Assembly: GCA_017408825.1 (NCBI GenBank)
Contig: JAFQTX010000034.1
Coordinates: 1-45,750, forward strand
Length of the DNA: 45,750 nt
Source: Alistipes sp.
GTDB taxonomy: Bacteria > Bacteroidota > Bacteroidia > Bacteroidales > Rikenellaceae
Direction: 5' to 3'
In this document: piece by piece, positions 2,266-15,306 of the stretch
Position numbering within the stretch: the first letter of the stretch is position 1
Layout: every line of letters begins with the position of its first letter
The notes under the pieces: generated by a model
The model's database searches: none
What the model was told of the DNA's origin: nothing
What the model saw: only the letters and a program-made list of their open reading frames with translations
Made by a program: the position numbers and the translations under genes

Positions 2266-2514
2266 TTATTCATAATCACAGAGCTTGTCGTACTCTTCAA
2301 TATTCAGTTTATTGAGTGTATCATCTGCAATTAATGGCTTGACATTGTATCGAAAACAACATTGTCCGAAGATGCTTAACCGATTCTCGCAGCAGAGTTT
2401 GATTTCGTTTTCAGCAACTTTTGTAAGTTCAGCAGCGGAGCGGATAGACCTCGCAATTGCCACTAACTCTCTCTCGGCGTTGAAGATTAGTATTTGTGGT
2501 TGTTTCTCTGACAT
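2266..2514 (-). CDS. small NUMOD1-like DNA-binding-type protein
   Basis: 82-residue protein with one module of the NUMOD1/homing-endonuclease-associated type: a beta strand (ILIFNAERELVAIA), then S-x-x-S/A-A-E-L as a helix-turn-helix-like segment, then IKLCC..., and an aromatic end (CCFRYN). It shares this layout and the acidic end LN.L...EYD.LC with the next gene upstream, so the two are paralogues. A -7 box TAACTTTG lies at 2546-2539 on the minus strand. Function is unknown; such small proteins are frequent around Bacteroidales mobile elements and a DNA-binding role is inferred. Confidence 0.65.
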   Translation of the reverse strand: MSEKQPQILIFNAERELVAIARSIRSAAELTKVAENEIKLCCENRLSIFGQCCFRYNVKPLIADDTLNKLNIEEYDKLCDYE

Positions 2515-2710: not shown

Positions 2711-3070
2711 TTAGTTCATTTCCTTGTGGGAGGTGACAATCTTCTCCCTCTGCCTATCCCTTGCCCTCTGACGAATATGTGCCATCTTCCGTGTTGAGAT
2801 ATACTTTCGTTTGATGCCACACAAATCGTCATACTCTTTCAGTGTCAGATTGTCCAAATCATCCATCTCCAATAGGATATCAGGGTGCAGTTGGCGGTAA
2901 TAATATGCTCCCGAACGGACCGATTTGCCTGTGCAACAATTGTGTATTGCCGATTTGTTTTCGTGCGTCAATTCAGCGGCACAATGCAATGACCGAACAA
3001 TCGCCACTAACACCCTTGCGCCATTGAATATAAGCACCTTGCACGGCCTTCTAAATTTACTCCTTCTCAT
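2711..3070 (-). CDS. small NUMOD1-like protein with basic tail
   Basis: 119-residue paralogue of the 82-residue gene downstream. It has a basic N-terminus (MRRSKFRRPCK), the module VLIFNGARVLVAIVRSLHCAAEL, the IHNCCTGKS turn and YYYRQ, then LDNLTLKEYDDLCG, and adds a strongly basic C-terminus (KKMAHIRQRARDRQREK-like) fit for nucleic-acid binding. The 196-bp gap before the next gene suggests a separate transcript. No biochemical function is known to me; DNA binding is inferred from the NUMOD1-like core and the charge. Confidence 0.65.
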   Translation of the reverse strand: MRRSKFRRPCKVLIFNGARVLVAIVRSLHCAAELTHENKSAIHNCCTGKSVRSGAYYYRQLHPDILLEMDDLDNLTLKEYDDLCGIKRKYISTRKMAHIRQRARDRQREKIVTSHKEMN

Positions 3071-3209
3071 TTGCTTGCTGTTTAATAGTTAGACTATTAT
3101 TAGAGTAGGAGTATTTTCGGCTTTTGGTTGGATGTTTATGTAGTTATATACCCACCTCTCACCAACACAAATCCGTGAAGCAATAATAAGATGATGTAAT
3201 TACTAATTA

Positions 3210-3980
3210 TTATCCATAATTATTCATTGCTATCTCCACCCCAGCGCTCAATGCTTTGATAGCCGATGGTAAATGGATATTATCATTACCAGCCTTTTCC
3301 GATGACGCGAGCACATCAGCTTGTCCGTTTTCCGAGAAGTGCTCATATTGAGAGAAATACTTGTAATAGTGGTACAATCGTGTTACCACCTTTCTAAGCT
3401 CTGGAATACTAATCAAGAAGTCTACAATATCTTTGGTCTTAACGCCCTTTGCCCTTGAAAAACCTTCATCTTTCAATTGTTGTTTTGATCGCTTTATTAC
3501 AGTCAACTTTTCCTGATCGTCGTCAAGTGTCAGCAGTCCCAAGAAATTGTCCTCCATTGTTAACTCCCACAAATGGTCTATAAAGGCATCATCACATATA
3601 ATTCCCGTACTTTTTATTTGATCTCTATATACCTCTTTGCGCTCTAACATCGAGTTGGCATACTCTATTGTTCTTAGATCCAGTTCCTCGTAAACCTGTT
3701 TCTTATTAGCACGCTGTATGTATATGGCAAACAAGCAATCGGTAAAGCAACAACGCAACAACAATCCTATCGGTAACTGAAATAATGAAATCTTTCCTGT
3801 TTTCAAGACATGAGCAGTCAACAGCAGTGATGAATACAGGTTTGAGTAGATACGGTATAACAAGAGTAGCTTAACCTTCTCAACCCGTTCCAGTTTACCA
3901 TGCGAACGCTCTTTACCGTATTCTTGAATCTTCTTCAGCAAGGTTAACTCTTCCGCAAACAGTTGTTTTATCTCAGTCAT
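3210..3980 (-). CDS. unknown helical protein, last gene of the protease-STAND operon
   Basis: I do not recognise this protein with confidence. The ATG at 3980 (MTEIKQLF) is preferred over an in-frame start at 3998 because it overlaps the preceding gene's stop by 8 bp, as expected for coupled translation. The 256-residue product is almost all predicted helix, with a hydrophobic stretch around residues 45-85 and a YHYYKYFSQYEHFS segment near the end. That segment is vaguely like the R/S-x-Y-x-H patterns of HEPN/DUF5677-type proteins; the resemblance is weak. As the distal gene of an MBL/protease-STAND operon it may be an effector or accessory protein (inference). Confidence 0.7.
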   Translation of the reverse strand: MTEIKQLFAEELTLLKKIQEYGKERSHGKLERVEKVKLLLLYRIYSNLYSSLLLTAHVLKTGKISLFQLPIGLLLRCCFTDCLFAIYIQRANKKQVYEELDLRTIEYANSMLERKEVYRDQIKSTGIICDDAFIDHLWELTMEDNFLGLLTLDDDQEKLTVIKRSKQQLKDEGFSRAKGVKTKDIVDFLISIPELRKVVTRLYHYYKYFSQYEHFSENGQADVLASSEKAGNDNIHLPSAIKALSAGVEIAMNNYG

Positions 3981-4260
3981 TATTATGATTCTTTTCAAAT
4001 TGTATCGGAGGTAAATATTTCATCCAGTCCATCATGTTGGCTAAATTGCGTATTCTTTCGTCTATATTGGCTATTTCTATTCTTCTGTTGGGAAGATACC
4101 GTGCATGTTCCAACGAGTCACTCAAAGCCCATGCACGGTTTGCCAAAAAGGCTTCATCTCCGGCATGCTGCTCTAAGTCATCAATCAATAAAAATATATT
4201 ATGCTCAAAGGACGCTCTTGAATTAGGTGGCGGCATACCGTATTTACTCTTCTCTTTCAT
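3973..4260 (-). CDS. small protein with LPN..DE..R motif, operon gene 4
   Basis: 95-residue soluble, helix-rich protein of unknown family. Its C-terminal half contains YLPNRRIEIANIDERIRN followed by LANMMDWM, which aligns with VLPNGRLNLGTVDEFVRS...HMIA in the upstream small gene; the two appear to be diverged paralogues sharing one domain. Its start overlaps the upstream gene by 17 bp and its stop overlaps the downstream start, so it sits firmly inside the operon. A regulatory or adaptor role beside the protease-STAND protein is inferred; no catalytic motif is visible. Confidence 0.75.
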   Translation of the reverse strand: MKEKSKYGMPPPNSRASFEHNIFLLIDDLEQHAGDEAFLANRAWALSDSLEHARYLPNRRIEIANIDERIRNLANMMDWMKYLPPIQFEKNHNND

Positions 4261-4500
4261 GAATTTGATTAAATATGTCTGATGCTATCATATGAAAACT
4301 TGATCTTACAAATTCATCAACTGTTCCAAGATTTAACCTCCCGTTGGGCAGAACTCTCACACGCATAATAGAATCCGTAGTTTGACTAGCAACACTTATA
4401 GAAAAATGAATGCGGTCATTCTCTAAACACTCTCTCAAAAGATTGGCACCTCTTTCAAAGTACTTCTCTCTGGATATGATGAATACAGGTCTTTTGCCAT
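4244..4500 (-). pseudogene. small LPN..DE..R protein, operon gene 3, apparent frameshift at its start
   Basis: An ATG at 4500 lies one base after the TAG of the big upstream gene, but its frame stops after 21 codons. One frame over, protein-like sequence begins at once: KRPVFIISREKYFERGAN, then LLRECLENDRIHF and the LPNGRLNLGTVDEFVRS motif, to a stop at 4244. One extra A in the run GCAAAAGA (5 A instead of 4) would give MAKRPVFIIS... and an intact ~86-residue protein. Without it only a TTG at 4438 (64 residues) is available. So the gene is frameshifted, decoded by slippage, or carries a sequencing error. Confidence 0.6.
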
Positions 4501-4501
4501 A

Positions 4502-7500
4502 CTAAAAATCATTGATTGCGTAATACACGTACCCAGCCCTTGCGTTATCCACTTTGCTATAGAGAATTTTGTCAAACAAGTTCTCCATTATCCGACTGTA
4601 TCTTCCTTTAGGTGAATAATCCAAATAAAAACTCCTCTGGATGTATACGTCTGACCGAATCAGCATCCTAATAGACCCATTCTTAGCCATAGCATGTACT
4701 TCATCAAGATACTGCGTTGCGAAATCTCTACCAGTAACATTCAGGTTATTGAGCTTATCAATCTTATGTTCTACAAACATCTTATCTTCAAAGTCAATCC
4801 ATACATCTCCCTTATCTGGTAATGATTCGGGAATCACTGACTTCAATTCATTTAACAGGTCGGCATAGCCACATTTCTCAGCAAATATTTTAGCCATCTC
4901 ATAGAGATTCCTGGAAACAGAAAAAAGAGGAATATGTAGTAATTGCGCCTCATTATCTTTCATCTTCGTATGAGCCAATACCTTATCAGGATTATCCTTT
5001 GCCATTTCAAGTAATACAGCAGATGCTTGCGTAGCTAGTCCAATCTCTGACGGGCTCACGACCTCATCAATCAAGCAATCAATTACTCTCTCATCAAATT
5101 TGACAAGCCAACAAATCGATTCAAAGGCTCTAGACGAAATAGTTCTGTCGGGGTGTAAAAAGAACCAGATTAACAAATGAATCATTTGTTCGTCTTTATC
5201 ACTCTCCTCCAGTTTTCCTACAAACCAATTAAACTTCTCAAATTGTTCCGCGGATGGCCTAACATTGATATCATAATGTCCTGTCACCACCTCAAATAGC
5301 TCATTGAAACTAAAATCCGTTTTTCTGACAAGTGGACTTATGATTTCACTCAGCGAATACCAATAGCTACCTAATGGTGAGACTATATCTTTCCTACATT
5401 TCTCAAGAATAGCTTGGCTAGTAGGCAAGTCTGAGAGCTTCTCAATGTGTTCCTCCTCTATCACATCATTTTTTCTATTCTTGGAGGCCCTTATCCATTT
5501 ATAGCCCAACTCTTCTAACTTGCCTTCCAACTCATTAAGGATTGCTGTCGGAATCTTCAAACGTTCCAGTTCATTTAGATAATCACCTTTTCTATCGTGG
5601 TTATACTCATCAATAAAGTATTCTGCCATTCTGGGCAACAAATCTTCCTGCACCTTATTTTCTCCCAAGACAGTGAAAATACCTGCATGAAGCTCAGCAT
5701 ATTGGTAATCGTTATGCATCTTGTCCCAGTTATCCCAGAACAATTCACTTATTGAATACCGAATATACGGCGATACTTCTTTACATTCCTCTAATAGTTG
5801 GCAAATTGCACTTGCTTCTATCAGATGGTTGCATCCAAGTTCATAACCTTCACCGACCTTCGGCATATCCACCTTCCACTCCTCTGCATTTTTCACAATT
5901 CGGTCCGCAGCAGGAAGTGTCTCAAACTTATAATATGCTATTGCGTCTTTTAACGATGACGTTTTTGCAATTGTTGCAACAAAAGTATTCTTTTGTTGCC
6001 TAACGTATCGTTGGAAGGTCATTTCACCTGATGCTTCCTCGAAAATAGCCGCCAAGTGGGCAATCTGTTTTTTATCAAAAGCTACATCTAAACTTTTGAA
6101 GCGGTTGATAAACTCTAATTGTGCCTCTTTATACCATTCCGGCCCCATGGAACTACGCATCACTTCGTGATAAACGACAGTTGCCTTATCATTCTCTCCC
6201 ATTAAGGCATATTCACGGCATATCTGCAGTAAATAACCGCAACGCTCGCTGCGATTCTGTACAGCATATTCAATATATTTTACGGCCTCGTCTGCTAAAT
6301 ACAATGCTATGCCACGCGTTTGCTCACTTGGAGCAAATATAACAGTCAGTCTGATTAATATGGCACAATAGCCCTCTCTATATAAGGATAGTTGGTCAGA
6401 CATCCTATTTTGCAAATGCACCATAAAGTCATTGATCTTGTCCACAAAAAACTCTTTGTATATCTCAGCCAGTTTGTCATATACAAATGGGATTAACTCT
6501 TCAGGCAACAAGTAGCTCCGCTTCCATCTCACACGCTGTTCAAAGGAAAAATCCATGAAGTCAATAATCTCCTTGACTGGAGCATACATTTCTTGATAAT
6601 CCTCGCCAGCCGCTCTTTTCCTGTAGAGGACTCCATTGACGTATGCAGTCCGAGCCACTAAGGCCTCAATATATCTTGCCCAACTGATGTCACCATGATA
6701 GTTGCGGTTCAGTGCCGGGCAAGTCAGTTCTTCATCGAGATATGCCAAATACAGACTCTCTTGATAGAAATGATTCAGCGAATCGGCATCAACATCAACA
6801 CCGTTATCCTTCCTGAATACAAAAGATCCGGGATTGGGTCCATAATCCTTCAGTATCTTTTGAACGATATCCGTACGGATTATTTTATCAATCAAACCAC
6901 TAGGTAACATCTTCAGTTCATCTTCACAAAACTTAAAGGTGTGGCTTAACATGGCTTCCTCAACCTGTCTCAGACAGTCATTGAAGGCTTCATTGTGACC
7001 AATGGCATGTAACCCAGCATCTGTATGATCATATAACGCTATGACCTTGACGAAGAACATAAGAAACTCTTCATCCCAGTCAATTTCATATTTTTTCAAA
7101 TGCTGCCCTATGTCAATCTTTTTGCCGGATCGCAGTTCATTTGAAATCTGATAGGCTAAAATCATCTCGCGAATCATCGATTTCATTTTGATGGTCCCTT
7201 CGTCTTTTCCTTCTATCAGACGATTGAGAAAACTGAGGTAGTGTGGCAAATGGGCAGGATCTTCATATCCCGCCAGGATTCCTTCCACCATCAATTGACC
7301 TTTGAGCACAAATACATATGGGCTGGATTTTTTTCCAATGTTTTTGTTTATTTCCTTCCTGATGGCTGCCTCTATAGCACACGATAAGGAGTACGCCTCA
7401 TCCTCATACCCTAATTCAAACAAACAGCGCAAATAGGAAATCGCCGTATCAATGCCCACTAAGAGACTATTGTCCCTTACCAGATACTTCAGTGCCACTG

Positions 7501-9460
7501 CAGGTTTCCCCATAAGTATCTTTATATCCGCCACCTCTTTTGCATTATCCACCATGATTGAGTCACAACGCATTTCTATACGTTGCGCTAGCAGCATCAG
7601 CCTTACGACCTCAATTGGAAGATTGTTGTCCACAGCCAGCGACAGGCATTCTTTGATGTCATGCATTACCAGGTCTGGCGACACGTCGTTTATGGCACAT
7701 TGGTCCGCCCAATTCTGATTACACATAGCTAGACCTTTCCTCACATCGCTGCCATTAACTACGTGATGCAAGTGATTTTCTATAGAATATATTTGTTCTT
7801 TATGAGCGTCACAATAGGCCGCTATCTGGTCATTGGTATAATTAATAATAGTTGAAAGATTCCCCGTGATGAAAAGCCGGAATGAGCTATGATATATTTC
7901 ATATACTTCGGAGTCTTTCTCTTTTAACAAATGCCAGAACTCCTTGGTAACCGACTTGAATTCAAAGGGGTTTGGACTTTTCATCATACCTATCAAATGC
8001 TCCTCTTCGATAGGTCCTCTTGTTTGAGACAACAAAGCCAGTACTTCGAATACGACACCTTTAGGATCCGCCTTCTTCCAGACGGCTTCATAATAAGAGC
8101 GGATATCTCCATTAATAGTAGGCAAACTCATCAGCCAGTCATTCAGTTCGCATTCTTTGGTAGTCTCATTAAAGGTTTCATAAATATAGCGACAGAGATA
8201 GTTCATATATAGGGGATGACCCTCTGTCTTAACAGCAACAGCTTGTATAAACGAGTAAGGCTTAGACCACTCGCCGCTGTTTTCTTGTATGAACGATTCG
8301 CAAGCAGCCATTTTCAATGGCGTAACTTCAATATAGTCGTCCGCAGCAATTCTCCCGATTACACTGGCAGGCAGTATCTCTTTTGTAATGCAAGACAACA
8401 CTATGCTGATATTATCAGGCAGCGTGTCGGGAATTAGCGAAAGGAAATCATCTACGCGGTTGGCATTTTCTGTTGACAATTCATCCAGTCCGTCAATAAA
8501 GATTACACCACGTTTACCTTCGTTTAATAATACACGGCTGATTACCCTTAGCCATCCTGCTATCCCATTACGTTTATCCTCAAATGAGGACTTTACAAGT
8601 TCAGCGCCTGTACGATTTGCATAAATGGTCTCTAACCAGTTAACAAAGAACCCTTGAGAGCAGCGTTCTGCTCGACTACGCGTATCATTAGGCACCTTAA
8701 AGAAGAACCGACCTAATACTTCCAAATTCTCGTATCCCGACTCAAAGTAAGCGGTCAATGTGGTCTTGCCACAGCCTGGTGATCCATACAACAAAACCCA
8801 CTTGCTACTTCTTTCTGTAAGACGCTCATCCAAAGCTTTAATGACTTCAAAATTCGGTTGTGAAGCCTCAACATCTTGCGCTATTGACGCTGGTATTGTT
8901 GTCACCCCCTGCTCTGTTTCTATTGGCAGATACCCTTCTTCTTGAATATCATTCAATTTTTGGACACTCACAAGGTTTATGCTGTTCCCTATTTGTTCTA
9001 TGACAACACCCACAACATTGTCGCCCTGAAAAACAGGAGCGCCCGACATGCCGCTATAGTTAAGACAGTCTCCCGTGTCATCAGTCAGAAGATTATAATC
9101 TGCAGTCGAATCTAATACTTTCTGATTGATTTTGCCGTTAATCCTCCGTCCTTTCAGTTTGGCTGTATCAGGATATCCAAACGTAATGCAACTTTCTCCA
9201 ATTCTTATATGATGAGATAGCAGAGGCAAATACTCTTCTGATGTTTTTCCCTGCACCTTCAACACTGCGACATCTGCATTCTCATATATTTTATCTACCA
9301 CAAACTTCAAATCGCCCCCAACAGCCTTCACCACGTTATTTCCATCATTTTTGAATGATTCTACAGTGTGCCATGCTGTTAATAATAGATCAGGAGCCAC
9401 ATAGAATGCAGTTCCTATTTCCTTGTCACAGATAACTTGTACTATCAGCTTCTCATACAT
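4502..9460 (-). CDS. trypsin-like protease / STAND NTPase with large helical C-terminus
   Basis: 1652-residue multidomain protein. Residues 1-180 form a trypsin-like (S1/HtrA fold) domain with the triad H31 (AWHT), D63 (ADVAVLKV) and S139 (GMSGAP). A STAND/NACHT-type NTPase follows: Walker A GSPGCGKTT at 226-234 and Walker B VIFIDGLDEL at 319-328. The remaining ~1200 residues are helical and repeat-like, as in the sensor regions of AVAST (Avs) and related conflict ATPases. The ATG at 9460 follows the MBL gene's stop by one base, so the two are translationally coupled. Inference: phage-triggered oligomerisation activating proteolysis of the partner proteins or of other targets. Family membership is strong; the trigger and substrate are unknown. 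Confidence 0.9.
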   Translation of the reverse strand: MYEKLIVQVICDKEIGTAFYVAPDLLLTAWHTVESFKNDGNNVVKAVGGDLKFVVDKIYENADVAVLKVQGKTSEEYLPLLSHHIRIGESCITFGYPDTAKLKGRRINGKINQKVLDSTADYNLLTDDTGDCLNYSGMSGAPVFQGDNVVGVVIEQIGNSINLVSVQKLNDIQEEGYLPIETEQGVTTIPASIAQDVEASQPNFEVIKALDERLTERSSKWVLLYGSPGCGKTTLTAYFESGYENLEVLGRFFFKVPNDTRSRAERCSQGFFVNWLETIYANRTGAELVKSSFEDKRNGIAGWLRVISRVLLNEGKRGVIFIDGLDELSTENANRVDDFLSLIPDTLPDNISIVLSCITKEILPASVIGRIAADDYIEVTPLKMAACESFIQENSGEWSKPYSFIQAVAVKTEGHPLYMNYLCRYIYETFNETTKECELNDWLMSLPTINGDIRSYYEAVWKKADPKGVVFEVLALLSQTRGPIEEEHLIGMMKSPNPFEFKSVTKEFWHLLKEKDSEVYEIYHSSFRLFITGNLSTIINYTNDQIAAYCDAHKEQIYSIENHLHHVVNGSDVRKGLAMCNQNWADQCAINDVSPDLVMHDIKECLSLAVDNNLPIEVVRLMLLAQRIEMRCDSIMVDNAKEVADIKILMGKPAVALKYLVRDNSLLVGIDTAISYLRCLFELGYEDEAYSLSCAIEAAIRKEINKNIGKKSSPYVFVLKGQLMVEGILAGYEDPAHLPHYLSFLNRLIEGKDEGTIKMKSMIREMILAYQISNELRSGKKIDIGQHLKKYEIDWDEEFLMFFVKVIALYDHTDAGLHAIGHNEAFNDCLRQVEEAMLSHTFKFCEDELKMLPSGLIDKIIRTDIVQKILKDYGPNPGSFVFRKDNGVDVDADSLNHFYQESLYLAYLDEELTCPALNRNYHGDISWARYIEALVARTAYVNGVLYRKRAAGEDYQEMYAPVKEIIDFMDFSFEQRVRWKRSYLLPEELIPFVYDKLAEIYKEFFVDKINDFMVHLQNRMSDQLSLYREGYCAILIRLTVIFAPSEQTRGIALYLADEAVKYIEYAVQNRSERCGYLLQICREYALMGENDKATVVYHEVMRSSMGPEWYKEAQLEFINRFKSLDVAFDKKQIAHLAAIFEEASGEMTFQRYVRQQKNTFVATIAKTSSLKDAIAYYKFETLPAADRIVKNAEEWKVDMPKVGEGYELGCNHLIEASAICQLLEECKEVSPYIRYSISELFWDNWDKMHNDYQYAELHAGIFTVLGENKVQEDLLPRMAEYFIDEYNHDRKGDYLNELERLKIPTAILNELEGKLEELGYKWIRASKNRKNDVIEEEHIEKLSDLPTSQAILEKCRKDIVSPLGSYWYSLSEIISPLVRKTDFSFNELFEVVTGHYDINVRPSAEQFEKFNWFVGKLEESDKDEQMIHLLIWFFLHPDRTISSRAFESICWLVKFDERVIDCLIDEVVSPSEIGLATQASAVLLEMAKDNPDKVLAHTKMKDNEAQLLHIPLFSVSRNLYEMAKIFAEKCGYADLLNELKSVIPESLPDKGDVWIDFEDKMFVEHKIDKLNNLNVTGRDFATQYLDEVHAMAKNGSIRMLIRSDVYIQRSFYLDYSPKGRYSRIMENLFDKILYSKVDNARAGYVYYAINDF

Positions 9461-9461
9461 A

Positions 9462-10598
9462 TCATATCTCGATTTGGATGCCGCTCTCTCCTTCAGGAGT
9501 TATGATTTCAAAGTCAAAATCTTTGTGGTATAATCCATCACTTAGCTCCTTGCAGATTGGTAAGTCATAATTGAAATATATCTTCATACCTTTACCCTTA
9601 GTAATGATATGTGCTAGCGCAGGCATATCGGGGTGGTTATACTTATCTCCATTCGTGGAAACCAACCATTTGTCTGAAACTATCAATTTAAATAACTCTG
9701 GCGAATTATTGTTATAGCTACCATGGTGAGACAGTTTCACCACATCAAATATATATGGCGCTTTCTCTTCACCGTAAAGAGCCCTCAGAGAAGCCGCCAC
9801 AGTTTCCGCATGTGAATCTCCTAAAAACAGTAATCTCTTCCCTTTAGTCTCAAGCACGAATGAAATGGAACTGCCGTTGCTTGCTGAACCATCTGGTTCG
9901 TAAACTTCCTTACACAACTTAAGCAGATCGTAACTCTTAGATACCTTTTTCTCATGGAAATGAAATCCTGGCATATCTTTGCTAAGACTAAACTCATAAG
10001 CATCATCCCAGTACTCTTCGCTGTGAGCCTTTTTAAGCAATCCATCTTTAATCAGCCTTTTCTTCCAAAAACTTTCAAGAACTCCCATGTCCTCATTATT
10101 GGGAGAAAGGACGTGAATGATAGCATCTCCTAAAGTAAAGGACATTGGTGCCATAATGGCGTTACCCTTCCCCGGTATATTCCAAGGAATCCCGTTTCGT
10201 GCTATAAGTGCAGACAAGGTACACCCCTGTTTAGCACTAATTGGTTTGCATTCTTCTGATTGACTCTCCTTGCAGATACTTCTATGAGCAAACGTTTCTT
10301 TTTCTTCCGTGGTGACAGCCACTGACTGAATATGTCTGTAACCGTTATACCATATTTCTCCTATCCCGATTGGCATATCTTCCAACAACCTGATGATGCC
10401 AGAGATATGGTCACTGTCTATATGGGTCACAACCACCACATCAAGTTTACATCCTTGCGCTTCAATTTCTTTTAAAGTAGGTAAAAGATAGTTCTCGTAT
10501 GTATCCACATATCCTCCATCAATAAGGATATAATGGGAAGTCTGGAATTCCACCAGAATACAATCTCCATTGAGTGCCGGAAGATTGATAATTCTCAT
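9462..10598 (-). CDS. MBL-fold (ComEC-like) hydrolase, first gene of the protease-STAND operon
   Basis: The ATG at 10598 (MRIINLPALNGDC) is chosen; a TTG 12 bp upstream is less likely. The 378-residue protein has the metallo-beta-lactamase layout of ComEC-like hydrolases: LIDGG at 26-30, THIDSDH at 58-64 (HxDxDH, a known variant of HxHxDH), GDS at 260-262, SHHGS at 290-294 and NHPD at 321-324. It has no membrane segment, so it is a soluble stand-alone enzyme, probably acting on a phosphodiester or nucleotide. Its coupling to a trypsin-STAND gene recalls AVAST type 1-like loci, where an MBL hydrolase is a component. It is a likely effector or signalling enzyme. Confidence 0.88.
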   Translation of the reverse strand: MRIINLPALNGDCILVEFQTSHYILIDGGYVDTYENYLLPTLKEIEAQGCKLDVVVVTHIDSDHISGIIRLLEDMPIGIGEIWYNGYRHIQSVAVTTEEKETFAHRSICKESQSEECKPISAKQGCTLSALIARNGIPWNIPGKGNAIMAPMSFTLGDAIIHVLSPNNEDMGVLESFWKKRLIKDGLLKKAHSEEYWDDAYEFSLSKDMPGFHFHEKKVSKSYDLLKLCKEVYEPDGSASNGSSISFVLETKGKRLLFLGDSHAETVAASLRALYGEEKAPYIFDVVKLSHHGSYNNNSPELFKLIVSDKWLVSTNGDKYNHPDMPALAHIITKGKGMKIYFNYDLPICKELSDGLYHKDFDFEIITPEGESGIQIEI

Positions 10599-10728
10599 AA
10601 ATTCTTTCAATTATATTGGTTCACACGCTTATATTTCTCTCCTAATATTTGTTTTAAAAAGTTACTATTAAAAAAACAAATCAAACATTTTAAACAACAA
10701 TAATTACCATTGCATTTAAAAACTACTT

Positions 10729-11808
10729 TTACTGCGTCATAAACACTCTCCAGCTACCGTCGTTTTCACCTCGCTCAACATACTTCTTTTGAATCAATTG
10801 GTCGAGTAGCTTCTGAATGGCAGCAATGCTGATACCCGTTATCTCTTTCATGTCTGCAAGAGTCAATGTAGGTTCAGTACGCATAGCGTTTAATATTTTG
10901 GTGTAGTTAGGTGTGCGGAATGCTATTCGCTCACCATCGTACCACCATACATTCTCATTCTTCTCGCTCACAAACAGCACATCGTTATACACCTCCGTAG
11001 CGACCAACTCATTGAAGTATTTCATAAATGGACGGATGTCTTTGATATCTGCATGAGCGCCATCACTAGGCACTGGCCCAACCTCGAGGTCTGCCTGATG
11101 CAAAGCCTCCAAGTATTCGCTCTTCTTTCGGCTACGAACAACAATCATCGGATAGTCGTGGCGAGTCAGAATAAAATTCACCATTAGTCGAGCAATACGA
11201 CCATTTCCATCCTCAAACGGGTGAATGCGAATGTAGCGATAGTGGAACAACGCGGCCAACTCTACCGGTGACAATTTGCCCTCCTGCTCTGCCCTATTGT
11301 ACCAATCTACTAGATCTGCCATCAAACCTGGGGTTTCCTCTGGAGAAGCATACTCAAACCTATCTCCGTATCGCGTAATCACACTATTGGGGCGTATCTT
11401 ATATTGACCAGCGTGTATCACATAGCTAGTTTGAACGCCACCAGGCAAATTGCGATGCACCGTATAATCCTCTCGAAGCAGAGTCTTATGCAATGTTCTG
11501 ATAAAGTTCTGCGTCAATGGAGTCTCTTTTACTTTGGCCTCCTCGGTCATCATGCGGAGTCCGACATTGCTTGCGGCCATCTCTTGCACATCACGCACAT
11601 CAGCCTCGCCAATCACCTTACCGAAGAGCAACAATATCTCAGTCTGACCATAGGTCAATGTGTTACCCTCGATGTGGTTGCTATTGTAGTTAAAATCGAC
11701 CGTAAAACGACGACTAAGCCTATCTCTGTCCTTCTCAGACAATGGCTGTAACTCCTGCCAAGCGGCCAACGCTTTCTTGATATTTAGGTATTTCATACGA
11801 CTAAACAT
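10729..11808 (-). CDS. Fic family protein with inhibitory helix and C-terminal winged helix
   Basis: 359-residue Fic-domain protein. The catalytic motif HPFEDGNGRIAR lies at 196-207 and is complete, so AMP transfer (or another phosphate-containing transfer) to target hydroxyls is predicted. An N-terminal S-N-H-I-E-G-N at 43-49 matches the (S/T)xxxE(G/N) inhibitory motif of class II Fic proteins, meaning it can self-inhibit without a separate antitoxin. Residues from about 295 read as a winged-helix DNA-binding domain (MKEITGISIAAIQKLLDQL). It is a single gene with its own -7 box at 11829-11822 and a perfect palindrome at 11849-11866, so autoregulation is plausible. The stretch from 11880 onward has no convincing partner. 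Confidence 0.92.
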   Translation of the reverse strand: MFSRMKYLNIKKALAAWQELQPLSEKDRDRLSRRFTVDFNYNSNHIEGNTLTYGQTEILLLFGKVIGEADVRDVQEMAASNVGLRMMTEEAKVKETPLTQNFIRTLHKTLLREDYTVHRNLPGGVQTSYVIHAGQYKIRPNSVITRYGDRFEYASPEETPGLMADLVDWYNRAEQEGKLSPVELAALFHYRYIRIHPFEDGNGRIARLMVNFILTRHDYPMIVVRSRKKSEYLEALHQADLEVGPVPSDGAHADIKDIRPFMKYFNELVATEVYNDVLFVSEKNENVWWYDGERIAFRTPNYTKILNAMRTEPTLTLADMKEITGISIAAIQKLLDQLIQKKYVERGENDGSWRVFMTQ

Positions 11809-12536: not shown

Positions 12537-12642
12537 AAATAAACTAAATTTAAGTATGGTTTATCCCTGAAATCGGGCTTAACATATAACATAGTTTAGT
12601 TTATTTCCCACCCCAAGCAGAGGCAACTCCTCTGCTTTTTTT
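12537..12642 (+). ncRNA. candidate structured RNA ending in a terminator
   Basis: A perfect 12-bp outer stem (aaataaactaaa at 12537-12548 with tttagtttattt at 12595-12606) encloses TTAAG/CTTAA and CCC/GGG pairings and is followed at once by a strong terminator hairpin (12616-12642). No ORF is present. It may be a small RNA or the leader end of an upstream transcript; no promoter was identified. Confidence 0.3.
12616..12642 (+). terminator. intrinsic terminator, copy 1 of a repeated sequence
   Basis: Stem agcagagg/cctctgct (8 bp), 5-nt loop, then T8. It is part of a ~48-bp sequence (12607-12654) that recurs at 15260-15306 after the RloAB cassette. Confidence 0.85.
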
Positions 12643-12874: not shown

Positions 12875-14203
12875 ATGATACTAAGATTAATTGTTGAGAA
12901 TATCGCATCATTTAAGAATGCGGTTGAGTTTAACACATTCCCTTCAAGTAAGAGTCAATCTCACAACAATCATAAGGTGAAATGCGGGCATGCAACAGCG
13001 TTGAGATTAGGAGCCATTTATGGCGCAAATGGAGCTGGCAAGAGTAATTTGTTAGCTGCCATTGCATTGCTGAAGCAGATGATTATGCAGGAGAGCCTCC
13101 AAAAGGTTGCTATTGGAGAAAATATCTCTTTCAAATTTGACAATGCCTGCATCAACGCACCTTCGGGAATAGCGGTGGAATACTATTACAACAAGAATAT
13201 ATATTATTATCATATTGAGTTTGATAGAGAGTGTGTGAGCCTGGAGGAGTTATATATCAGTAAAACAAATAAGGATGAGCTTGTATTTAAGCGAGATGGA
13301 GAGAACTTTCAGATTAGTAAAAACTATTTCCAAAATGGATATAACGAGCAATTTGCCGAAGGTTTGCAAAGACTTGTCCGCTCAGATATGATAGCACTCC
13401 CATTTGTTGGAAAATTGTACGCACAAGAGTTTCCGGTTATAGCAAGTGCATATTCATGGTTCGCAGAAAAATTACAAGTAGTAGCGCCTGATGCCACTAC
13501 TGGATTCATTCCTCATTTCTTGGATACAGATAAGGAGTTTGAGGCTCTTGTTAATTCTACTATCCAAGAGATGAATACGGGCATATCTCAACTCAAAGTA
13601 AATAGGGAACTTGTAGAGGAAGATAAAATCATTCCGGGATCGATGTTATATGCAGCTGTTAATGCCGCAAAACAATATCCAGGTGTGCCTCAACCTCTAT
13701 TTGGAAATAGAAGTGGGGAGGTTTCAAATATAATCTATGATCAGGGACAGGTTGTACTTAAAACTCTTGTTGCTATTCATACTGACAACAATGGAGATAT
13801 TACAGAGATGCCTATTACAAGAGAGTCCGACGGAACTCGCCGTATCATCGAATATATGCCATTGCTGTACGCCATTACAAGGCAGAATGCAGTCTATATT
13901 GTTGATGAGATAGAGCGAAGCATCCACCCAATACTGATAAAAGAGATCATCAGAAAACTATCACATGGGGACGGTGCTAAAGGACAGTTAATTTTTACAA
14001 CACACGAGTCTGCATTGCTGGATCAAGACATATTTAGACCAGATGAGATTTGGTTCGCCCAAAAGGATACAGATCAGGCCACTCAACTCTATCCATTGAG
14101 TGACTTCAATATTCATAAGACAGCGAACATTGAAAACGGATACCTAAACGGAAGGTATGGCGGCATACCTTTCTTGTCTAACCTCAAAGATCTTCATTGG
14201 TAG
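12875..14203 (+). CDS. RloA/AbiL-like AAA (ABC-type) ATPase
   Basis: 442-residue ATPase of the AAA_15/AAA_21 group (SMC/ABC-like head). Walker A is GANGAGKS (50-57), a signature-like ESDGTRR lies at 317-323, Walker B VYIVDEIE at 340-347 and the switch H in FTTHES at 374-379. It is paired with an RloB-family gene that starts one base after its stop. This pair is the known AbiLi/AbiLii (RloA/RloB) abortive-infection architecture, in which the ATPase senses or holds the nuclease-like partner. Its own promoter and operator-like dyad lie upstream. Function against phage is inferred from family, not shown here. Confidence 0.88.
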   Translation: MILRLIVENIASFKNAVEFNTFPSSKSQSHNNHKVKCGHATALRLGAIYGANGAGKSNLLAAIALLKQMIMQESLQKVAIGENISFKFDNACINAPSGIAVEYYYNKNIYYYHIEFDRECVSLEELYISKTNKDELVFKRDGENFQISKNYFQNGYNEQFAEGLQRLVRSDMIALPFVGKLYAQEFPVIASAYSWFAEKLQVVAPDATTGFIPHFLDTDKEFEALVNSTIQEMNTGISQLKVNRELVEEDKIIPGSMLYAAVNAAKQYPGVPQPLFGNRSGEVSNIIYDQGQVVLKTLVAIHTDNNGDITEMPITRESDGTRRIIEYMPLLYAITRQNAVYIVDEIERSIHPILIKEIIRKLSHGDGAKGQLIFTTHESALLDQDIFRPDEIWFAQKDTDQATQLYPLSDFNIHKTANIENGYLNGRYGGIPFLSNLKDLHW

Positions 14204-14204
14204 T

Positions 14205-14903
14205 ATGATTGAGAGAAGAAGGGATTATGAGAAAAAAGAACCTTGCAGAGATTCACATAAAATATATGTAATCTGCGAAGGTTCTTCTACTGAACCAGAT
14301 TACTTCAAATTTTTCCAAGGCTTATCAAGCAACTTGGAAATAATCACTATACCTTCCGTTGATGGTAAGACGGATCCGGTAAAACTAAAAGAACAGGCAG
14401 AGTTCAAGTTCTTAAACGAAATGTGCGAATATGAACTTGATTACAGACAGGGTGATGTCGTTTGGTTTGTAATAGACACTGACAGATGGGAAGAAAAAGA
14501 TAAAATCAAAATTCTACGGAGTTTCTGCGAAGAACAGAATGACAATATTAGTTGGACGGATCTTAAAACCGCTAAATATTCGGCGTGGAAGGTAGCCCAA
14601 AGCAATCCAAGTTTTGAGATATGGCTGTATTATCACGCATTTAAGAATAAGCCTACAGATGAAGCCGTTCGTAAGTATGCTTCTTTTAAAGAGTTTGTAG
14701 GGCAAGCTTTCGCAGGAGGTTTTGATTTCGAATCGGATCCAGTTAGAATATCAGAAGCTATCAGAAACTCTGAACATAATTTTGCAAAATATGCAGATTC
14801 TATTACCAAGTATAGTTCAGAGATGCATTTTTTGGGATGCGAAATATACAACTTTGTAAAGGGTGATATTCGTAGATTGCGTAACAAATTAAAAAAAGGG
14901 TAG
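14205..14903 (+). CDS. RloB-like protein (AbiLii type, Toprim-like)
   Basis: The ATG at 14205 is chosen because it directly follows the ATPase stop; the open frame extends 48 bp further into that gene. The 232-residue product has the RloB family signature CEGSSTEPDYF at 24-34, a central VVWFVIDTDR acidic motif and the NPSFEIWL segment, matching the Toprim-like fold proposed for RloB/DUF4435 proteins. It is the probable toxic effector nuclease of the pair, held in check or activated by the ATPase (family-based inference). The coupled start and the shared promoter mean both proteins are made together. Confidence 0.88.
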   Translation: MIERRRDYEKKEPCRDSHKIYVICEGSSTEPDYFKFFQGLSSNLEIITIPSVDGKTDPVKLKEQAEFKFLNEMCEYELDYRQGDVVWFVIDTDRWEEKDKIKILRSFCEEQNDNISWTDLKTAKYSAWKVAQSNPSFEIWLYYHAFKNKPTDEAVRKYASFKEFVGQAFAGGFDFESDPVRISEAIRNSEHNFAKYADSITKYSSEMHFLGCEIYNFVKGDIRRLRNKLKKG

Positions 14904-15245: not shown

Positions 15246-15259
15246 TAAGGATATCTAAT

Positions 15260-15306
15260 CCCACCACAAGCAGAGGCGACCCCTCTGCTTTTTTGTGTTG
15301 TTGTCC
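15260..15306 (+). repeat. direct repeat, copy 2, containing a terminator
   Basis: Near-identical to 12607-12654 (a few mismatches plus one T fewer in the T-run). It includes the hairpin agcagagg/cctctgct at 15269-15289 and T6. The two copies bracket the complete RloA/RloB operon with its promoter, 2.65 kb apart. Confidence 0.8.
15269..15294 (+). terminator. terminator of the RloA/RloB operon
   Basis: Eight-bp stem agcagagg/cctctgct, 5-nt loop, then T6, 24 bp after the stop of the third operon gene. Confidence 0.85.

Follow-up and report, generated by a model that had tools for sequence, protein, structure and literature searches.

We analysed a stretch of 45,750 nucleotides from an Alistipes sp. 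genome (GenBank assembly GCA_017408825.1, contig JAFQTX010000034.1, positions 1 to 45,750; hereafter the window), in which five genes form one minus-strand operon running from 10598 to 3210, as judged from open reading frame (ORF) calls and junctions (Table 1). In order of transcription they encode an enzyme of the metallo-β-lactamase (MBL) fold, a trypsin-like protease fused to an NTPase of the STAND family (signal transduction ATPases with numerous domains), two small proteins and a helical protein, and the first four are named here after the components of the type 1 system of antiviral STAND NTPases (AVAST), Avs1, that they match. The genes are tightly packed: a single base pair separates the avs1a stop from the avs1b ATG, and another the avs1b stop (4504-4502) from the avs1c-1 ATG (4500); the avs1c-1 stop and the avs1c-2 ATG lie 7 bp apart if the ATG at 4236 is used, or overlap by 17 bp if the one at 4260 is; and the avs1c-2 stop overlaps the ATG of the helical gene by 8 bp (3980-3973).

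Table 1. Features of the five-gene locus and of its surroundings, in window coordinates
Feature	Position	Strand	Basis
avs1a, MBL-fold pro-nuclease, 378 aa	9462..10598	-	PADLOC, Pfam, NCBIfam
Avs1a gating-loop site 1, codon of Ile120 (I134 in EpiAvs1a)	10239..10241	-	alignment
Avs1a gating-loop site 2, codon of Val219 (I234 in EpiAvs1a)	9942..9944	-	alignment
avs1b, trypsin-like protease + STAND NTPase + long C-terminal (presumed sensor) region, 1652 aa	4502..9460	-	PADLOC, NCBIfam
Trypsin_2 domain of Avs1b, residues 16-151, triad H31/D63/S139	9008..9415	-	Pfam 1.8e-13
NACHT/STAND NTPase of Avs1b, residues 216-392, Walker A GSPGCGKT, Walker B FIDGLDE	8285..8815	-	Pfam NPHP3_N 7.1e-9, NACHT 1.9e-7
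avs1c-1, first-copy class, frameshifted near 13th codon	4244..4500	-	PADLOC, NCBIfam, Avs1c tree
avs1c-2, last-copy class, R..[FM]EHN signature; in-frame ATG at 4260 also possible	3973..4236	-	PADLOC, NCBIfam, tree
Orphan helical protein, 256 aa, putative accessory gene of one sub-branch	3210..3980	-	ORF; start overlaps avs1c-2 stop
Five-gene block common to relatives	3207..10639	-	blastn ends, identity profile
Fic-domain gene	10729..11808	-	SoFic, PDC-S04 matches
AbiLi/AbiLii pair (AAA_21 + RloB-like)	12875..14903	+	
36-bp direct repeat, one copy	12606..12641		
36-bp direct repeat, other copy	15259..15294		
Small ORF downstream of block	2711..3070	-	
Small ORF downstream of block	2266..2514	-	

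Three features of AVAST type 1 are present at this locus: an MBL gene directly upstream, a trypsin-STAND gene with intact catalytic triad and Walker motifs, and avs1c downstream, here in two copies. Avs1a is matched by the PADLOC models Avs1a (4e-82) and LmuA (2e-88), by Pfam Lactamase_B (5.7e-12) and by NCBIfam Avs1a (2.9e-105); Avs1b by PADLOC Avs1b (3.2e-196) and NCBIfam Avs1b (643.6 bits); and the two small proteins by the Avs1c models of PADLOC (4.7e-7 and 2.2e-8) and NCBIfam (1.1e-11 and 2.8e-12). Across the 71 loci of the survey described below, the MBL metal-ligand residues H59, D61, D63, H64, D261 and H292 are invariant in 66 of 66 aligned Avs1a; the triad is invariant in all 62 Avs1b rows that have a letter there, and G226, G229, G231 and K232 in all 63 such rows, the other rows being cut or split. 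The initial annotation, made from the sequence alone, had described one minus-strand operon of five genes holding an MBL enzyme, a protease-STAND NTPase and twin small proteins with a common motif, all of which is borne out, and had noted a resemblance to AVAST type 1 that proves stronger than supposed, since the third component of that system, Avs1c, is what the small genes encode. Its further statement that the small and helical genes fit no described set is not supported for the former and holds for the latter: searches with the Pfam, PADLOC and NCBIfam models assigned four of the five proteins to Avs1 families and the helical protein to none, so that the five genes together do not match a defined system.

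Tuck et al. (2025) describe the MBL nuclease as a proenzyme opened by a partner protease, with purified proteins for Hachiman and in cells for the Avs1 of Erwinia piriflorinigrans (PMC12799240). Changes at I134 and at I234 of Erwinia Avs1a each lowered defence and together abolished it, infection yielded an Avs1a cleavage product fitting I134, and expression of a terminase activated the system (PMC12799240). According to another source, Avs1 to Avs4 are nuclease-based and recognise phage packaging proteins (PMC12931631). In our alignment the two Erwinia residues (locus L102 of the survey), which are the Ile of EISARQG and that of VINAR when numbering is counted from an in-frame leucine codon taken as the start and chosen to fit the published positions, fall in the same columns as Ile120 and Val219 of the window. 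The first site is Ile in 64 of the 66 Avs1a and Val in 2; the second is Ile in 42, Val in 16 and another residue in 8. With all catalytic residues in place, and with Ile120 and Val219 aligned to the two published positions, the known mechanism, in which the sensor oligomerises, the protease opens the gating loops and the nuclease is freed, very likely applies here by analogy.

The survey started from the window Avs1b aligned with four plasmid-borne Avs1b, with which genome and viral contigs were scanned, and comprises 71 loci: 65 on genome contigs, 1 on a viral contig, 4 on plasmids and the window. All open frames of each locus were searched with Avs1a, Avs1b and Avs1c models, the Avs1c model then being refined, and an avs1c copy was counted at E ≤1e-6 over more than 40 model positions, which excludes the broken third copy of L081, present as two fragments. 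Eleven of the 106 avs1c references, near-duplicates and one fragment, do not enter set A6, and the four plasmid references do not enter A7. All 31 Bacteroidota-type loci have more than one avs1c (two in 24 loci, three in 7), and all 39 other loci having avs1c possess a single copy; L087, whose contig breaks off within avs1b, has none. Twenty-nine loci titled as Bacteroidota, the window and L047 make up the Bacteroidota-type set; L047 bears a Lachnospiraceae label and was included as near-identical to the Bacteroidales locus L046. L067, labelled just 'bacterium', stands with the others, and near-identical pairs (L046/L047, L057/L068, L044/L048, L064/L107, L089/L090) were retained in the counts. 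Five of the 71 loci showed no MBL gene: the contigs of L047, L048, L086 and L100 start inside avs1b, and L065 offers only a 1270-residue avs1b frame. With avs1c in 65 of the 66 MBL-bearing loci (all but L087), the small genes do co-occur with the MBL-STAND pair, and the new variant of an antiviral system suspected in the initial annotation is supported as a variant of a known one, with two Avs1c and an extra helical gene. In 13 of 33 copy-to-copy avs1c junctions measured across the survey (window and L060 excluded, the start codon closest to the preceding stop being taken) the gap is again 7 bp. The four plasmid records already name their single gene avs1c, and in L056 two of three Avs1c copies score above the NCBIfam cut-off. 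In a search of 395 genomes of the phylum, the window's own genome alone gave Avs1c; the only other match spanned 27 residues (E 0.008).

A single branch of the Avs1b tree (62 of the 71 sequences, those below 1500 aa being excluded) separates the multi-copy from the single-copy loci with an SH-like approximate likelihood ratio (SH-aLRT) support of 100, and the difference in copy number thus seems to have arisen once and not 31 times independently. The Avs1c tree (108 rows, 79 columns) places all 31 first copies, the 7 middle ones and 5 last copies on one side of a branch with support 89; a second branch, with support 86, sets apart the remaining 26 last copies. Those five last copies belong to loci of the long-Avs1b branch in which two copies were counted, among them L081 with its broken third, and look like cases in which the true last copy was lost. 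Each of the 31 first copies is nearer to a first copy elsewhere than to its own last copy, and likewise for the 31 last copies, a count helped by near-identical loci (23 and 28 of 31, respectively, by median identity). The classes also have their own residues: after the conserved Glu of helix 1, the 26 last copies have His in 24 cases and Asn in 25, with a Trp near the end in 24, and 29 of the 31 first copies have Arg after that Glu. Constraining all 69 Bacteroidota copies together was not rejected by the approximately unbiased test (p-AU 0.55), which fits, without proving, a single duplication in the Bacteroidota ancestor; forcing both classes of a lineage together, the arrangement expected from recent duplication, was rejected for four three-copy long-Avs1b loci (p 5e-50) and, less strongly, for three Weeksellaceae loci (p 0.033). 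As a separate observation, four marine gammaproteobacterial loci (L062, L063, L071, L096) have a single Avs1c that groups with the 26 Bacteroidota last copies (support 100), and their Avs1b groups with Bacillota, a pattern possibly due to exchange of avs1c between systems or to a long-branch effect.

For Avs1c itself, AlphaFold2 run on 92 Avs1c sequences gave a confident three-helix model of the 95-aa form of avs1c-2 (helices at 15-31, 36-52 and 68-82; mean predicted local distance difference test score, pLDDT, 85.3). The most conserved residues, R15, E19, P57, N58, R60, E68 and R71, map to the start of helix 1, the loop preceding helix 3 and the start of helix 3, and this order of elements suggests that they may cluster at one end and bind a partner; on our reading, R15, E19, P57-N58-x-R60, E68 and R71 probably form an interaction site for Avs1b or Avs1a. 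A fold search with this model gave no confident match, and no description of Avs1c function was found in the literature searched, the founding AVAST papers, which may show tandem copies, being outside its reach. The ratio of nonsynonymous to synonymous substitution rates (dN/dS), given only for pairs with a computable dS and not for saturated ones, is 0.06-0.26 in avs1c-2; in avs1c-1, for which four intact relatives were compared without the window, it is 0.07-0.19. The window avs1c-1, listed as one of the two small genes in the initial annotation, retains the homology and lacks the open frame: its ATG frame is shut after 21 codons and the Avs1c homology resumes in another, and the gene is in frame in the relatives L042, L043 and L045. 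The genome assembly being 83% complete in 44 contigs, the frameshift may be a real mutation or an assembly error.

Avs1b also differs in size: measured from stop to stop it has 1665 residues in the window, whereas the median of 38 non-Bacteroidota sequences is 1942.5; a shortened Avs1b occurs in 15 of the 24 multi-copy-branch sequences longer than 1500 aa. Since the protein is shorter and its C-terminal profile match weaker, the trigger recognised here may differ from that of Erwinia. In L060 (13600-16700) a two-gene insertion sequence, presumably IS21-like from its transposase and ATPase, sits at the 3' end of a shortened avs1b, before two avs1c genes, and in L045 (8962-13958) avs1b is split over two frames, being either broken or affected by an assembly error.

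The fifth gene is the orphan of the set. Its helical product had no match at a meaningful score in PADLOC, Pfam, NCBIfam or PHROGs; DUF5677 (PF18928), considered as a lead, was dropped, having no match at E ≤10 in the window's own genome, and the window protein itself had no Pfam match at E ≤10. Among the 71 loci, relatives of this gene were found only in L042, L043 and L045 (82-85% identical to the window protein), with the 8-bp overlap between avs1c-2 stop and helical ATG kept in all four loci and a dN/dS of 0.10-0.20; the next-closest Avs1 relatives (L044, L046, L047, L048) lack it. The blastn alignment with the window runs from 10639 to 3207 for L043 (97.1% over 7434 bp), from 10638 to 3207 for L045 (93.6%) and from 10623 to 3214 for L042 (82.5%), and no window match was found outside this block in the fetched flanks of these loci (the L042 contig starts 1.5 kb upstream of it); L043 and L045 have about 1.4 kb of upstream flank in common. 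Because the block matches and the flanks do not, the unit shared between genomes is the set of five genes, and the helical gene travels with the system. Identity to L043 falls from 98-100% over avs1a and most of avs1b to 95-97% at the avs1b 3' end and 87-89% in the helical gene, a drop that suggests recombination inside the block. From these comparisons, one sub-branch would have gained the helical gene as an accessory that moves together with the system. In L046 (14457-15068) and L047 (4525-5136) a 203-aa protein, hydrophobic by eye, is encoded behind avs1c-2 at the same position, and this spot may therefore take varied accessory genes.

Outside the block, the Fic-domain gene lies directly upstream of avs1a and the AbiLi/AbiLii pair constitutes a second defence system; GC content is 40% in the block, 38-46% in the other measured stretches below 15.3 kb and 50% from 16.9 to 45.75 kb. 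Given these neighbours and the low GC, the region is probably a defence island of foreign origin. The AbiL block is flanked by a 36-bp direct repeat (92% identical), each copy of which resembles by eye a hairpin followed by T's; these are perhaps duplicated terminators or the ends of an insertion unit. Just downstream of the five-gene block, the two small ORFs are similar to each other, with a common S-x-x-x-A-A-E by eye; they had no Pfam, PADLOC or PHROG match, and we take them to resemble NUMOD1-type segments.

Putting these data together, we conclude with good confidence that this is a divergent member of AVAST type 1 from a branch found in Bacteroidota, working in the way set out here, Avs1c duplication and specialisation and an accessory fifth gene included. 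By analogy with Erwinia, a phage protein (terminase in the system tested there) would be bound by the C-terminal region of Avs1b, whose STAND NTPase would then oligomerise the protein; this would activate the trypsin-like domains, which would cut the Avs1a gating loops at Ile120 and perhaps at Val219, and the freed nuclease would destroy DNA, stopping the infection along with the cell. The family assignment, the intact active sites, the conserved cut-site residue, the copy-number pattern and the transfer as one block are observations made here; the mechanism is carried over from relatives. The Avs1c proteins would be small three-helix subunits, probably duplicated in the ancestor of the Bacteroidota branch, whose copies specialised and most likely became two different subunits of the same complex. 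We infer a role for them, as for the fifth gene, from these patterns. More tentatively, Bacteroidota Avs1 might constitute a distinct subtype, in which Avs1c was duplicated into two (sometimes three) non-interchangeable subunits of a hetero-oligomer that links the STAND sensor-protease with the pro-nuclease as an adaptor or safety catch, Avs1b was shortened in most members, and the 256-aa family was added as a regulator or second effector in the window's sub-branch.

Several observations weigh against the assignment and this scheme. The window proteins score below the NCBIfam equivalog cut-offs (352.2 against 420 bits for Avs1a, 643.6 against 1500 for Avs1b, 44.8 and 46.6 against 70 for Avs1c), from which it follows that automatic annotation would probably miss the name of the locus; however, three Bacteroidota Avs1a straddle the cut-off of 420 (L049 at 429.4 and L056 at 499.2 above, L044 at 357.9 below), and we have not treated it as defining, such a cut-off being a threshold for annotation and no feature of the biology. 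The window Avs1b is about 280 residues below the length of the Avs1b model, its best profile stretch stopping at residue 1331 with only a weaker second one beyond. The second cut site is Val here and not Ile, and a cleavage product was seen for the first Erwinia site only (PMC12799240). Between the window and L043 the avs1a dN/dS is 0.61, though with a dS of only 0.013. As for the copy classes, the split is modestly supported (89 and 86, on 79 columns), five last copies fall outside the last-copy class, and grouping the first and last copies of the Bacteroidales set, which holds the window, was not rejected (p-AU 0.285). Finally, the frameshift in avs1c-1 means that the window copy may be inactive, or else reflects an assembly error.

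The last point underlies the view that the window copy is a decaying, inactive system, which we consider possible but doubtful: the other four genes are open with their catalytic residues kept, the near-identical L043 has avs1c-1 in frame, and an assembly of this completeness and fragmentation may hold single-base errors. The same frameshift, the variation between two and three copies and the broken third copy of L081 could also mean that the tandem avs1c copies are redundant, reflecting dosage or drift and not specialised subunits; by median identity, 8 of the 31 first copies are no nearer to the first copies of other loci than to the last copy of the same locus. We regard this as unlikely, since order and class are maintained over the branch, with the first copies grouped, 26 of 31 last copies grouped and distinct signature residues; both classes are under purifying selection where dN/dS is computable, and the stray last copies are confined to long-Avs1b-branch loci with two countable copies.

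A more serious contender is that the helical gene is carried along as a passenger, or is a one-gene system of its own sitting behind Avs1: it was found in only 4 of the 71 loci, the next-closest relatives lack it, and L046 and L047 have a different gene at its place. Against it stand the start overlapping the avs1c-2 stop wherever the gene occurs and the end of the shared block 3 bp past the helical stop codon in the two closest comparisons, which argue that it travels as part of the operon. Far less probable than any of these is a Lamassu, Hachiman or DRT (reverse transcriptase) system with a borrowed nuclease-protease pair. The MBL protein does match LmuA besides Avs1a, and the protease part HamA and reverse transcriptase-protease models, but these matches span only the MBL or the trypsin part, that of HamA being limited to residues 15-202 of Avs1b. 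The MBL variant of Lamassu has an SMC-like LmuB partner, and the nuclease-protease variant of Hachiman has a protease fused to HamA together with the HamB helicase; neither LmuB nor the HamB helicase nor a reverse transcriptase was matched among the 15 window proteins scanned with PADLOC. Here the protease is fused to a STAND NTPase, the Avs1b match extends over 1325 residues and Avs1c follows, and this domain architecture leads us to disfavour such an origin and to retain AVAST type 1.

On the AVAST type 1 reading, a branch in which Avs1c has been duplicated into ordered classes offers a natural experiment on what Avs1c binds, and the residues separating the classes could reveal its partner. 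The branch further suggests that a prokaryotic system resembling nucleotide-binding leucine-rich repeat receptors (NLRs) has dedicated small subunits, which diversify independently, and the helical protein points to a new accessory family.

Compared with known systems, the locus shares features with three groups and departs from each: (i) The nuclease-protease variants of Hachiman, Lamassu and DRT and the caspase-nuclease (canu) loci have the same kind of gated MBL pro-nuclease opened by a partner protease, the gating being shown for Hachiman and Avs1 and supported for canu (PMC12799240), but they rely on other sensors, with no Avs1c and no STAND NTPase as here. (ii) The Avs1 of Erwinia piriflorinigrans (L102) has the order MBL, trypsin-STAND, Avs1c, the triad, the MBL ligands, the first-site Ile and the tight junctions in common with the window, whereas the window Avs1b is 24% identical to it (best segment) and about 280 residues shorter, Avs1c comes in two classes and not one, the second site is Val and a helical gene is added. 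(iii) Other Bacteroidota Avs1 (L044 from Bacteroidaceae, L056 from Sphingobacterium) likewise carry two or three tandem avs1c, although no helical gene was found there and their Avs1b are 58% and 29% identical (best segment), respectively. Judged from these sequence comparisons, the core of the system is known, and what is new is the multiplication of Avs1c across a whole branch and the addition of an orphan gene.

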